Of a DNA stretch of 64,000 nt, positions 6,344 through 63,603 are shown piece after piece; within the stretch, counting starts at the first letter, position 1, and each line of letters begins with the position of its first letter. This DNA is from an uncultured Caldilineaceae bacterium (lineage in GTDB: Bacteria; Chloroflexota; Anaerolineae; Caldilineales; Caldilineaceae), in assembly GCA_958295915.1 (NCBI GenBank), contig OY282381.1:4832001-4896000 (forward strand), given 5' to 3'. Made by a program: the position numbers and the translations under genes. The notes below the pieces were generated by a model. That model was not told the origin of the DNA and searched no databases. It saw only the letters and a program-made list of their open reading frames with translations.

Positions 6344-9115
6344 TTATCTCTCCTCGAAAGGCGTTACAGTCAAAGGTATGTGGGCGCTATCTTCGCCATT
6401 GGGGAGCACGAGCCGCTGACTATCCTCAGGACGATACACACCGAGCCGTATCTGATATGCGCCCGCAGGGAGTTCAGGCGGCAGATAAAGCCCTATCCGT
6501 GTATGTTGCAGTTGCTCGGCGCCGTCATCCGCGGCGGAGGGATCAACCTGCGCCAATAGTGTCCCCTGACCATCTAGCAGGTGCACGAAAAAATTGAGCC
6601 TTTCACTTGGGATATGCTTGCGCCAGATCAGATCCATAGGAACGATCTGCCCTGCAGGTTGCGGTCGGGTGATAGCGCGCCACTCGCTGACAGCAATCCG
6701 CTCATCAAACATGAGATCTCTGTGTACAACCTGCATGTCCTCGGCGGAGGGGAGGGCAAGCACAACCCGCTGGTTGCAAGGCAGCCATTGTGAACGAGCT
6801 ACATTGGGATGGGCCACATAATAAGTTTTCTGGATGCGTGCGTAGATCATATCGTTCCACGGGGCATCTAAGGAGTAGTCAAGCAAGAACCAGACAGGGG
6901 AGGAGCGTCCATCAATAAGGCTCAGTTGATTTTCTAACTGCCATTGTCTGAGTATGACGGGTATGACTTCTTGCTCGGGCGTGACCGTGAAAAGACGCTG
7001 CGCATGTGACTCGCGTTGCAACCAGTCCACGAGCGCATGGGTGCTGGCAGCGATGGCATGGTTCGCTGGAATCTCTGCCAGCGGAGCAGTCAGGTTGTGA
7101 TACGGCCCCCGCATCCATGGAGGAGGATCGGTGTATTCTGGTTCGTCGCGGTTGGGGCAAGAGAGAGTGTAGATAGCGCCATCCTCATCTTCATGCGCAA
7201 GCGCAAAAAACGCGGTATTCACGGGCGGCGCCGAGGAGAGATACTTGATGTAAACGGGTTGTGCGCCTGGAATGCGCGCCTCAATCGAACAGAGAGAGTT
7301 TGCATCGTACAGATTGACATCCGGGAGACAACGCCAGGCATTCTCTGAGACTGGCGTATAGAGGTAATCATCAGAGAGGGATATAGGTACATAGGACAGA
7401 CGTTGGGCATAATTCACTTCCGTTAAACGATACCAGAATTCCTGCGTAGCGGGATCTTGCTCATAGAAAACCAAGGCCTTAAGCGGTGTATTCCGGGCAA
7501 TCCAGCGCGATGTGGATGGAATCGTCGGCCTCTCTTCAGTGAAGCGATAATAAAGCTCAGCGCCAGCTGTCACAACAGACAAAACAAACTGTATCGCCAC
7601 AAGCGCCGTCACATAGCGGCGCTTCTGATCTTCCCACTGGGTCAACACATAACAGCCGATCATGACAGCGGCAAACTGAGCCGGCAAGATGCCGCGCATG
7701 GCAATGTCATTGAAGAGAGGGGTCCTGGCTATAAAGGGAATCAGCAGCCCGATGCTTGTGAAGATCCAGAATCGGAGCGGACGGATATGCAGGGGGGGAC
7801 GCATCATCAACCACAGAAGCAGCGGCAACAGGATACCGATTTCAAGCAATAGGTAAACAAAACCAGTAATGGGATACCTGAGCCAGGGGATGCCTGGGAT
7901 GTCGAGAAATGCAAAGGAACGCAGCTCGAATTCCAGATAGGATTGCTTGCTCAGGATATCGATAAGGTCCGGGAAGACCAGAACAAGAGCGACCAGAGCC
8001 GTGCTCCCGAGATAAGAGAGTTGGCGTATACGCTCCTTGGCTGTCAGCAGTTCATAGAGATGCCAGAGCGCCAAACCGGGCACAGCGCCGAGGAAAATGA
8101 AGACGCTGGTATTGAACAAAGCCACCAGCAGCAGGGCAACGGCCACCGCGTGCGGGAATCCCTTTTGCATAAGGCCGGGCCATGTCCGATGGGTGGAGGG
8201 CCCGGCCTTTGCATAGGGCCTTGTTGTCGTGATATAGAAGATCAGCCCAACCACAGCGATCCCCAGCAGATGTTGGGGTACCCAGACATACAGGGTGATC
8301 GGCATAGATATCTGCATAAATCCATCGAACCAGCTGAGGTCAATCGGCCAGCCATCCAGATGCGGTTGACCCCATCCTGTCTCGTTCTGCCATCTCTGCA
8401 GCTGCAGCCAGGGCAGGAAGAGAACATCCAGTCCGGTGGCTGTGTGAAGGGCAATCAGTCCAAACAGGCGCGTCTTGCGAGTATCGGCGTACATATAGAT
8501 CAAGCGCGTCAGGAAGAGCGAGACCGCAAAGGTCTGGATGCCGATGTGAACCACCCATGCCTGCGCAATGCCAACCGCGCCCTCTGTATATCGAACCCAG
8601 AGCGCGGGCGCAATAAAGTCGAGATCATAGTAGGTGAACGGATATAGCGGCTGCCGCGCGTAGAGAGATGGCAATCCCGTTGTCGCAATGGAAGTCAGTT
8701 TTGTCAGCTGAAAGTGGTCATCGTCGATCTGGGAGATATGCCCCTGGAAGATGCCAAATCGCAGGGCTACGACAATGGCTGTCAGGAGAGCTGCGAACAG
8801 CACTGCAGCTTTGTCTGTTTTGGGAAGTCCGCCGAAGTCGGGCAACCATCCTGTGACGCCCGGCCACAGTCGGATGCCAATCAGGGCGAGCGCCCAGAAC
8901 GAGATATACCCGGCCAAGAGCAAGCTGTCCTGCCCTGGAAAGACCCGACTCAGCAAGGTAAAGGTCAGAGGCGCAAACAACAGCGAGAGCAGAACGGCGA
9001 GCGCGCCAGTATCAAATGGCTTCTTCGTGTCGCCAGCTGAGTTCGATACGAGTACGGCTCCGGGCAGAAAGTAGAACAGGAAAAACAGAACAAGAACGCT
9101 GCTGAGAACCAACAT
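6344..9115 (-). CDS. large polytopic membrane protein, GT-C-like, copy B
   Basis: 923-residue paralogue of the preceding gene, nearly identical over long stretches, with the same multispan N-terminal half (DDDHF in the acidic loop) and beta-rich soluble C-terminus. Differences are concentrated in the soluble half. It carries an extra 18-residue segment after ITTTR (about residues 300-320) encoded by a hairpin-forming insert at 8166-8219, and ends in FEER because the duplication endpoint replaced the stop found in copy A. Whether the two copies differ in acceptor or donor is unknown. Confidence 0.75.
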   Translation of the reverse strand: MLVLSSVLVLFFLFYFLPGAVLVSNSAGDTKKPFDTGALAVLLSLLFAPLTFTLLSRVFPGQDSLLLAGYISFWALALIGIRLWPGVTGWLPDFGGLPKTDKAAVLFAALLTAIVVALRFGIFQGHISQIDDDHFQLTKLTSIATTGLPSLYARQPLYPFTYYDLDFIAPALWVRYTEGAVGIAQAWVVHIGIQTFAVSLFLTRLIYMYADTRKTRLFGLIALHTATGLDVLFLPWLQLQRWQNETGWGQPHLDGWPIDLSWFDGFMQISMPITLYVWVPQHLLGIAVVGLIFYITTTRPYAKAGPSTHRTWPGLMQKGFPHAVAVALLLVALFNTSVFIFLGAVPGLALWHLYELLTAKERIRQLSYLGSTALVALVLVFPDLIDILSKQSYLEFELRSFAFLDIPGIPWLRYPITGFVYLLLEIGILLPLLLWLMMRPPLHIRPLRFWIFTSIGLLIPFIARTPLFNDIAMRGILPAQFAAVMIGCYVLTQWEDQKRRYVTALVAIQFVLSVVTAGAELYYRFTEERPTIPSTSRWIARNTPLKALVFYEQDPATQEFWYRLTEVNYAQRLSYVPISLSDDYLYTPVSENAWRCLPDVNLYDANSLCSIEARIPGAQPVYIKYLSSAPPVNTAFFALAHEDEDGAIYTLSCPNRDEPEYTDPPPWMRGPYHNLTAPLAEIPANHAIAASTHALVDWLQRESHAQRLFTVTPEQEVIPVILRQWQLENQLSLIDGRSSPVWFLLDYSLDAPWNDMIYARIQKTYYVAHPNVARSQWLPCNQRVVLALPSAEDMQVVHRDLMFDERIAVSEWRAITRPQPAGQIVPMDLIWRKHIPSERLNFFVHLLDGQGTLLAQVDPSAADDGAEQLQHTRIGLYLPPELPAGAYQIRLGVYRPEDSQRLVLPNGEDSAHIPLTVTPFEER

Positions 9116-22215: not shown

Positions 22216-23046
22216 TCAGATCCCCAAATAAGCCTCCGCCACCTGAGGATCGGCCAGCAGTGACTGCGAATCCCCGCTGAGGACGATGCGGCCAGTTTCC
22301 AGGACGTAGCCCCGGTGGGCCACCTGAAGCGCTGCTTGGGCGTTCTGCTCCACCAGCAGAATGGTCGTCCCCTGCGCGTTGATCTCGCGGATGATCTGAA
22401 AGATCTGCTGCGCCAGAATCGGCGCCAGGCCCATTGACGGCTCGTCCAAGAGCAGTATGCGCGGACGACTCATGAGCGAGCGTCCGATCGCCAGCATCTG
22501 TTGCTCACCGCCAGAAAGAGTGCCGCCGGGCTGACTGAGGCGTTCGGAAAGCCGGGGAAACAGCTCGAGTACCCGTGCGAAATCCCGCCGGATGCCGGCG
22601 GTGTCCGTGCGGGCAAATGCGCCCATCTCCAGGTTTTCCCGCACGGAAAGGCGGGAGAAGATCTTGCGGCCTTCCGGCGATTGGGAAACGCCCAACTTTG
22701 CGATCGCATGGGCCGGCAGCTGATCCAGTCGGACAGCGCAACCTCCCATCCGCCGGGCATCGTTGCGCTGTTCGATTCGGACGCTCTCGCCCCGGACATC
22801 ACCGGGGCGACGAGACCCTGGGGACGCGGGCGTCTCGCCCGCAAAGATTTCGTTTCCTTGACTGTGCAGATAGATGGCCCCAGCGCGCGCAGAGAGGACG
22901 CCGCTAATTGTGTTCAGAGTCGTCGTTTTGCCCGCGCCATTGGAGCCAATGAGCGTGACGATTTCGCCTTCGTTCACCGTCAAGGATACGCCCTTCAGCG
23001 CGTGAATATGATCGTAGAATGTGTGGATGGTTTCCAGTGTCAGCAT
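22216..23046 (-). CDS. livF: branched-chain amino acid ABC transporter ATPase LivF, with hairpin-derived insertion
   Basis: Nucleotide-binding subunit of a HAAT-family importer. Walker A is GSNGAGKTTT, the signature LSGGEQQMLAIG and Walker B ILLLDEPSMGL. At 276 residues it is about 40 longer than normal LivF: between GAIYL and the conserved SPEGRKIFSRLSVRENL lies a non-family segment encoded by 22745-22855 that contains two hairpin repeats (GCGGGCG-TCT-CGCCCGC and CGCCCCGG-ACATCA-CCGGGGCG). The frame stays open. Because the insertion is before the Q-loop region, activity may or may not survive. It is the last gene of livKHMGF. Confidence 0.88.
   Translation of the reverse strand: MLTLETIHTFYDHIHALKGVSLTVNEGEIVTLIGSNGAGKTTTLNTISGVLSARAGAIYLHSQGNEIFAGETPASPGSRRPGDVRGESVRIEQRNDARRMGGCAVRLDQLPAHAIAKLGVSQSPEGRKIFSRLSVRENLEMGAFARTDTAGIRRDFARVLELFPRLSERLSQPGGTLSGGEQQMLAIGRSLMSRPRILLLDEPSMGLAPILAQQIFQIIREINAQGTTILLVEQNAQAALQVAHRGYVLETGRIVLSGDSQSLLADPQVAEAYLGI
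22778..22845. repeat. two adjacent hairpin repeats inside livF
   Basis: CGCCCCGG/CCGGGGCG with a 6-base loop at about 22790-22811 and GCGGGCG/CGCCCGC with a TCT loop at 22828-22844. The latter 17-base core recurs at 41230-41244 and 50773-50790 outside genes. Confidence 0.75.
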
Positions 23047-37789: not shown

Positions 37790-37900
37790 GTACTCCAGTA
37801 CTCTTTTGATAGGTATTCCAATACCCTATTGGAGTAGGTATTCCAATACTCTATTTGATAGGTACTCCAATACTCTATTGGAGTAGGTACTCCAGTATTT
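37790..37900. repeat. tandem 23-25 base operator-like repeats
   Basis: Four consecutive units start GTAYTCC at 37790, 37813, 37838 and 37862, with a partial fifth at 37887. Units two and four are palindromes with arms TACTCCAATA and TATTGGAGTA (TATT in unit two) around a 3-base centre; units one and three have the left arm and a degenerate right half ending TTTGATAG. The array abuts the -35 of the small-protein promoter. Confidence 0.85.
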
Positions 37901-39786: not shown

Positions 39787-39895
39787 GCCGAGCCAGTGGG
39801 CGCCTGGAAAGCGCCGGTGACTTTGCCGCAACGCATTTTTGCTATAAACTATGTAAACTGATAGTCTCCTGTACCAGAACACAAAAGCAATTTTT

Positions 39896-40003
39896 AGTTG
39901 TCAGTTTCCAGTAGTCAGTGAACTGCAGTTACTCGAAACCAAAAACTAAAAACCAGAAACTGCAGTTTCTGTCGCGCGCTACAGTGGCGCGCCAATACAA
40001 CCT
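39896..40003. repeat. heptamer-type repeat followed by a CGCGCC hairpin repeat
   Basis: 39896-39930 has TTGTCAGTTTCCAGTAGTCA type sequence; 39971-40003 is a copy of the hairpin repeat family (GTCGCGCGCTACAGTGGCGC then GCCAATACAACC). Both lie in the leader of the sugar-binding-protein gene. Confidence 0.85.
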
Positions 40004-41185: not shown

Positions 41186-41287
41186 GTCGCGCCTCATAGT
41201 GGCGCGCTGATCTAACCTGCATCATGCAGGCGAGACGCCCGCCTTTCTCGGCTAAGTCGCGCCCCACAGTGGCGCGTGAATATAAAC
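41186..41287. repeat. two copies of the CGCGCC hairpin repeat and a GCGAGACGC hairpin
   Basis: Copies at 41186-41217 (GTCGCGCCTCATAGTGGCGC) and 41256-41287 (GTCGCGCCCCACAGTGGCGC). Between them, at 41229-41244, GGCGAGACGCCCGCC matches the hairpin core inserted in livF. Confidence 0.9.
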
Positions 41288-62544: not shown

Positions 62545-63603
62545 ATGGAAGATACACTTCTTGAAGTCAATGATCTGAAACAGTGGTTTCCAATCCGTCA
62601 GGGATTCTTGCAGCGCACCGTCGGGCACGTCAAAGCCGTTGACGGCGTCAGTTTTGTCATCCGCCGCAATGAAGCCTTGGGCCTGGTGGGCGAGAGCGGT
62701 TCCGGCAAGACAACGGTCGGGCGCGCATTGCTGCGGCTCTATGACCCGACTGCGGGTGAAATCTGGTACACGACCGCCGATGGCAAGCGTATCGACATCG
62801 CCCATATCGCCCAAGCGGAGATGAAACCCCTGCGCAAAGAGATGCGCATGATCTTTCAGGATCCGTTCAGTTCGCTCAACCCGCGACTGACTGTGAAAGA
62901 CCTGATCGGTGAACCGCTCATCATCCACAAGGTAGCCTCCGGTCGGGTGTTGGAAGACAGAGTTGCGAAGCTGATGCAGTCGGTTGGACTGGATCCGAAC
63001 TACATGCGCCGCTATCCACACGAATTCTCCGGTGGCCAAAGGCAACGCATCGGCCTCGCGCGCACGCTGGCGCTCAGCCCCCGACTGCTTATCGCCGATG
63101 AACCGGTTTCAGCCCTGGATGTGTCGATCCAGGCCCAGGTGCTGAATCTGCTCCAGCAGTTGAAGGACGAACTGGGGCTGACCTATCTGTTCATCGCCCA
63201 CGATCTGTCCGTTGTCGAACACATGTGTGATCGCATCGCCGTGATGTATGTGGGGCGGCTGGTGGAGATCGCTGGGTCGGATACATTGTTGCAACGACCG
63301 CTGCATCCATACACAGAAGCGCTGGTGTCTGCCATTCCGCCGGCTGATCCGGAGATCAGATTGGATCGGATTATCCTCGAGGGCGACATCCCCAGTCCGG
63401 CCAATCCACCCTCCGGCTGTGTCTTTCACCCCCGTTGCCTCTACGCCCAGGATGTATGCACGCGGGAGGAACCGCAGTTGGAAGAGATCGAGCCGGGCCA
63501 TTTTGCCAGTTGCCACTTCGCCCAGGAGCTGAACCTGCAAGGTATCGGAGGATTGGATGGCGCAACCCCCCATCTGACGGGCATCGTTGCGCCATCCAAC
63601 TAG
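62545..63603 (+). CDS. oppF: oligopeptide/dipeptide ABC transporter ATPase, OppF/DppF type
   Basis: 352-residue ATP-binding subunit. Walker A is [15 protein letters not shown], signature [15 protein letters not shown], Walker [13 protein letters not shown]. The C-terminal part has [16 protein letters not shown] and the cysteine cluster [20 protein letters not shown]...SCHF. The ATG directly follows the cytochrome stop, indicating one transcript. With the ATPase at 52.2 kb it forms the heterodimeric motor. Confidence 0.93.

Follow-up and report, generated by a model that had tools for sequence, protein, structure and literature searches.

A derived in-frame hairpin insertion in one of two tandem membrane-protein genes of a Caldilineaceae bacterium and its probable relation to a high-copy 48-bp palindromic repeat

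Protein-coding palindromes are best known from Rickettsia. Rickettsia palindromic elements (RPE), as described in those passages of PMC10969869 that cite Ogata et al. 2000 and 2002, are dispersed elements of roughly 150 bp that lie in-frame in unrelated conserved protein genes, where the encoded peptide is apparently tolerated. REP elements have mostly short loops, a terminal GTAG/CGTC tag and RAYT partners, and are mostly intergenic, with some reported inside genes (PMC3733652). Bacterial MITEs are small non-coding inverted-repeat elements that are mobilised in trans and are sometimes fused in-frame to genes (PMC10969869). Here we describe a hairpin in one of two tandem genes, copies A and B, within a stretch of 64,000 nucleotides from the genome of an uncultured Caldilineaceae bacterium (the window), together with a 48-bp palindrome, TYGGAYGGYGCAACCTCCCAKCNNNYGGGCATCGTTGCRCCRTYCRAT, of which this genome holds about 100 copies. 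In the literature searched, such repeats have not been reported from Caldilineaceae. The reading that we favour, with a probability of about 0.55, is that the hairpin is a derived in-frame insertion in copy B and most likely a divergent member of the RPE-like 48-bp repeat, amplified to about 100 copies.

The proteins encoded by copies A and B are 91% identical. A sequence-only reading of the window had described a hairpin confined to one of these copies, with perfect 11-base arms and TGCATA at both outer sides, and direct reading of the sequence together with alignment of the two copies confirmed each of these points (TGCATA at 8166-8171 and 8210-8215). The size given there, 54 bases or 18 residues, has to be corrected to a net difference of 51 bp or 17 residues (TTTRSKGFPHAV versus TTTRPYAKAGPSTHRTWPGLMQKGFPHAV). 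This is by far the largest of the in-frame indels between the two copies (+6, +51, +3, +15 and -9), which also differ at the C-terminus, and it lies in a loop between two hydrophobic segments (membrane helices), where loops vary. The arrangement AAGGCCGGGCC-N17-GGCCCGGCCTT was expected 0 times in shuffled sequence and is unique in both the window and the genome; single-strand folding gave a z-score of about -4 on both strands. Arms of at least 10 bp are not rare by themselves (10 expected in 400 kb by Markov simulation), and what counts is the coincidence of the hairpin with the indel. Rfam models run over the window matched a tRNA only.

Coordinates of the tandem genes, the hairpin and its flanks, and copies of the 48-bp repeat within genes (window positions unless a locus is named).
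Feature	Position	Strand	Remarks
Copy B, 923-aa multi-pass membrane protein	6344-9115	-	carries the insert; no Pfam match
Copy A, tandem paralogue, 897 aa	3533-6226	-	without the insert; one codon below orthologue length at the site
Hairpin	8171-8209	-	11-bp perfect arms, 17-nt loop; minus strand AAGGCCGGGCC CTCCACCCATCGGACAT GGCCCGGCCTT
Left direct repeat CCTTTTGCATA	8161-8171	+	direct reading
Right direct repeat CCTTTGCATA	8206-8215	+	overlaps the right arm; direct reading
LivF-type ABC ATPase	22216-23046	-	variable linker longer by about 26 residues, from the 48-bp palindrome and two further palindromic stretches
48-bp family copy, in-frame in livF, opposite orientation	22729-22776	+	74.9-75.5 bits; insertion missing in orthologues
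Second palindrome in the livF insertion, CGCGGGCGTCTCGCCCGC	22825-22842	+	similar sites at 41226 and 50776
48-bp family copy, C-terminal tail of an OppF/DppF-type ABC ATPase (62545-63603, +)	63553-63600	+	
CMP kinase ORF, 300 aa	L145:1355-2254	-	two 48-bp palindromes
Dihydrolipoyl acyltransferase	L143:717-2705	-	two in-frame palindromes

The direction of change was read from orthologues of the copy A/B protein (about 48-62% identity) in three genomes of the same genus within the Caldilineaceae, namely G010, G011 and G012, the last with three tandem copies and one elsewhere. Tandem duplication of this membrane-protein gene thus recurs in the genus (G012:C5:41761-50533 for the three tandem copies). 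The insert is missing in six of six orthologous genes (four in G012, and those of G010 and G011), which identifies the hairpin segment as a derived, in-frame insertion in copy B rather than an old gene segment lost from copy A. Such a deletion had been named as the alternative in the sequence-only reading, to be recognised by orthologues that all carry the segment; the comparison gave the opposite outcome, no support for a deletion was found, and it can hardly have occurred. Several orthologues read R-P-Y-R-G or R-P-L-K-G, matching the left side of the copy B insert (TTTRPY...). The ancestral sequence can thus be placed at about TTTRPYKGF, to which copy B has added about 48 bp; at this site copy B is 51 bp longer than copy A and 48 bp longer than the orthologues.

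At the insert point, copy A (TTTRSKGF) falls one codon short of all the orthologues and has therefore undergone a change of its own. The two genes had been called a natural occupied/empty pair; copy B is indeed occupied and copy A is without the insert, but copy A is no clean empty site, having neither TGCATA nor the ancestral spacing. Likewise, of the proposed recent, frame-preserving insertion after the duplication, the in-frame insertion stands on the orthologues that are without it, and its timing after the duplication is likely only, given the codon missing from copy A. The same missing codon would be accounted for if the insertion were older than the tandem duplication and had then been lost imprecisely from copy A, a matter of timing that fits any origin of the insert; this sequence of events needs one more step, copy A bears no trace of the arms or of TGCATA, and we consider it unlikely.

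The direct repeat that flanks the hairpin extends past TGCATA (the left and right repeats of the table, 11 and 10 bp long, differ by one base). The exact 6-bp TGCATA repeat defines a 44-bp unit that is out of frame; since 44 is not a multiple of three, TGCATA alone cannot be the target duplication of a 44-bp insertion, and the insertion would need an imperfect repeat of greater length or some other route. Inverted arms enclosed by direct repeats would also be expected where a different transposon had left a footprint or a remnant after deletion, with AAGGCCGGGCC as terminal inverted repeats and a target duplication of roughly 10 bp. This origin is distinctly improbable: this genome and 45 others of the Caldilineaceae yielded no multi-copy element with these arms, and the other GGCCGGGCC hairpins are single sites, the one inspected resembling an intrinsic terminator. 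The genome-wide search for arm-N17-arm that had been proposed was carried out, with exact and relaxed searches for arms and loop, and recovered the hairpin as a single copy by sequence. No donor longer than about 15 bp was found elsewhere in the genome, and the element blasted within the genus gave short chance matches only.

The 48-bp palindrome has the layout TYGGAYGGYGCAAC CT CCC AKCNNNY GGG CATC GTTGCRCCRTYCRAT, and its two copies in the window, at 22729 and 63553, share the arms GCGCAAC/GTTGCGC around a 19-nt loop. Genome-wide searches plus sampled stretches gave 49 sites by pattern search and 109 covariance-model matches, the latter including both strands of some copies. Each other member of the genus had 1-3 weaker matches, and 149 other genomes sampled across the class had none at E<=1e-6; by unbiased sampling, 400 kb of this genome contained 4 sites and 400 kb of G011 no convincing one. 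The weak matches in relatives were considered as an expansion and rejected, several of them being one and the same hairpin, located between the genes for a solute-binding protein and a permease. In several relatives (L115, L117, L119, L121, L125, L128, L129 near 1500) this intergenic position is occupied by a conserved hairpin such as GGGCGGCGCAACAGCCCGGCGACCGGGCATCGTCGCGCCGCCC, which resembles the 48-bp family and may be its ancestral source.

In the folded family hairpin, an outer stem of about 14 bp is separated by an asymmetric internal loop (2/4 nt) from an inner stem of 3 bp, which is closed by an apical loop of 7 nt. Across 58 copies, 94% of cells pair and 14 of the 17 pairs show compensatory changes on both sides; covariation was seen in 95 cells versus 23 in shuffles, with a score of 0.382 versus 0.178 when shuffled that collapsed when partners were slid. 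Inner stems vary widely (for example GCAAC, CTCTGC, CCTCGAC, ATTGAC, GGCAAAT) yet remain paired, and the apex is nearly constant. All six frames are free of stops in 30 of the 58 copies, compared with 19% of shuffled hairpins.

Family copies are found in-frame within conserved genes. LivF is about 26 residues longer than 15 same-genus orthologues. The livF insertion is composite, made up of the 48-bp family, GCGGGCGAGACGCCCGC and CTCGTCGCCCCGG...CCGGGGCGAGAG, and is absent as a whole from these 15 genes. The CMP (cytidylate) kinase carries two in-frame copies in opposite orientations (residues 98-113 and 217-232), both of which fall in gaps of the alignment to the solved homologue 2h92, and in a Cpn60-family chaperonin most of an in-frame copy at 445-462 stands opposite a gap when aligned to 8wuc. 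One of the two in-frame copies in the dihydrolipoyl acyltransferase directly follows a truncated match to the E3-binding domain. Further in-frame copies lie in a penicillin amidase, a DUF2298 membrane protein and an ABC-2 permease. Classified by crude codon usage, which is indicative only, 15 of 77 family copies lie clearly inside genes and 6 at C-terminal ends, the rest being ambiguous.

Five family copies sit at the same point inside a dispersed repeat, between GGGCAACCACAAGG and ATTGCCCCTAC, which also occurs uninterrupted. Occupied and empty forms differ by 48 bp with no obvious target duplication, and the five may descend from one insertion. Of this second dispersed repeat, likewise palindromic (GGGCAACCACAAGGGTTGCCCCTAC), the stretches read hold more than 30 sites, and in five of these (L074, L075, L085, L100 and L101, around GGGCAACCACAAG) the 48-bp palindrome interrupts it at one point. 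The window also holds A+T-rich hairpins at 37814-37885 and 39891-39971; the one near 39.9 kb has the motif AACTGCAGTT, which recurs genome-wide with CAGTGGTCAGT and probably represents a further repeat family.

The hairpin of copy B was then compared with the 48-bp family. In the family covariance model R2 it aligned ungapped over positions 7-45 with 20.4 bits (E 0.0024 on the window) and was the best non-family match in the window, where known members score 67-76 bits; a score of 19.9 bits was also obtained for one unrelated stretch within 100 kb, so that the model E-values are optimistic. The hairpin keeps the architecture of the family, that is the long outer stem, the 2/4-nt internal loop, the 3-bp inner stem and the 7-nt apex. 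From the family apical sequence C-CTCCC-A-C...GGGCAT-G it retains CTCC, GG, CAT and the closing C-G, with a total score below that of all members. In a separate, purpose-built scoring scheme, set up like the whole comparison after the resemblance had been noticed, the hairpin was measured against members, background hairpins and architecture-matched nulls, the latter with sliding and on both strands. It scored 20.8, as compared to 2.0 for the best of 142 real background hairpins and 38.4 for the lowest of 58 members. An equally high score was reached by 0 of 20,000 random or fully shuffled nulls, by 4 of 20,000 in which the loop alone was shuffled and by 3.3% of those in which only the stem was, indicating that the stem adds little and that the loop carries the family signal. 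Simple alignment of the loop to the family gave a p of only about 0.01, and the covariance model and the architecture-matched nulls were stronger. The sequence-only searches blastn and nhmmer found no link between the hairpin and the family. The outer family motif TYGGAYGG...CCRTYCRA, common though not strictly invariant among members, is absent from the hairpin, whose stem is GGCCGGGCC as opposed to GGYGCAAC, and it would be surprising for a decayed family copy to combine a perfect stem with the lack of any close match. On balance the hairpin is probably a divergent family member, although this is unproven.

The main rival is a local origin, in which the hairpin arose on the spot through a replication error, by template switching or slippage at a quasi-palindromic sequence (CCCTATGCAAAGGG), with no mobile repeat involved, and the product was kept as the frame was intact. 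It would agree with an insert that is single copy and has no donor, with a site that contains imperfect direct repeats and short GGCC-rich segments, with the several other in-frame indels between the copies, and with the excess of singleton hairpins in this genome (57 versus 10 expected in 400 kb). However, it offers no local template for the 17-nt loop, the very part that resembles the family apical loop as measured by the loop shuffles. We give it an appreciable but minor chance of being right.

The repeat might spread as follows. It would be present transiently as a single-stranded hairpin, would be moved in trans by a recombinase or transposase, and would land between genes, at gene ends and within genes. 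Insertions in surface or linker loops would add a harmless peptide and survive selection, because 48 nt amount to 16 codons and often hold no stop in six frames; selection would retain only frame-neutral insertions in tolerant loops. A search of this genome (G000) for the Y1/RAYT transposase (PF01797) gave no match, the same search being positive in 5 of 14 control genomes, and with no Y1_Tnp protein in the genome a RAYT was rejected as the mobiliser. A more far-reaching reading, to which we assign slightly less than even odds, is that an active or recently active selfish 48-nt palindrome in a Chloroflexota lineage has been tuned to be harmless in coding sequence and has inserted in-frame in CMP kinase, chaperonin, dihydrolipoyl acyltransferase and other genes, the hairpin being a diverged stem variant. 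Selfish DNA of the RPE-like, protein-coding kind would then have arisen a second time, independently. A compact family of about 100 copies, with strong covariation in the stem and with members in-frame in widely conserved genes of an unrelated phylum, would allow tests of how DNA of this kind moves, of what preserves the reading frame and of whether palindromes give rise to new protein segments, and the A/B pair and livF provide ready occupied/empty comparisons.

Among known systems, intrinsic terminators share the 9-bp GGCCGGGCC arms of the hairpin, which recur at 3261590 in this genome and, nearly identical, in G006. The GGCCGGGCC terminators differ in having stems extended by TTC/GAA and short loops, and the one inspected is intergenic and next to an A tract; as a terminator the hairpin was rejected, given its 17-nt loop, the missing T run and its mid-gene position in coding frame. 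MITEs are comparable to the 48-bp family as small inverted-repeat DNA that may be fused in-frame to genes; the family differs in that neither a clear target duplication nor the terminal inverted repeats of any known IS are present, and it adds 48 bp in the occupied/empty comparison. As in REP elements, the palindromes of the family are short and present in many copies, and they combine constant features with compensatory changes in the stem. REPs, however, carry the GTAG/CGTC tag and mostly short loops, and the family was not classed among them because its genome is without a Y1_Tnp protein. With RPE, the family and the insert share palindromic DNA that is in-frame in conserved genes, absent from orthologues and apparently tolerated as peptide. 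The family differs from RPE in its length (about 48 versus roughly 150 bp), its phylum, and its constant apex with a covarying stem; it is read in several frames and both orientations, whereas RPE give one conserved peptide. The 48-bp family thus appears to work like RPE and is likened to them by behaviour, not by sequence homology, without being classed as RPE.
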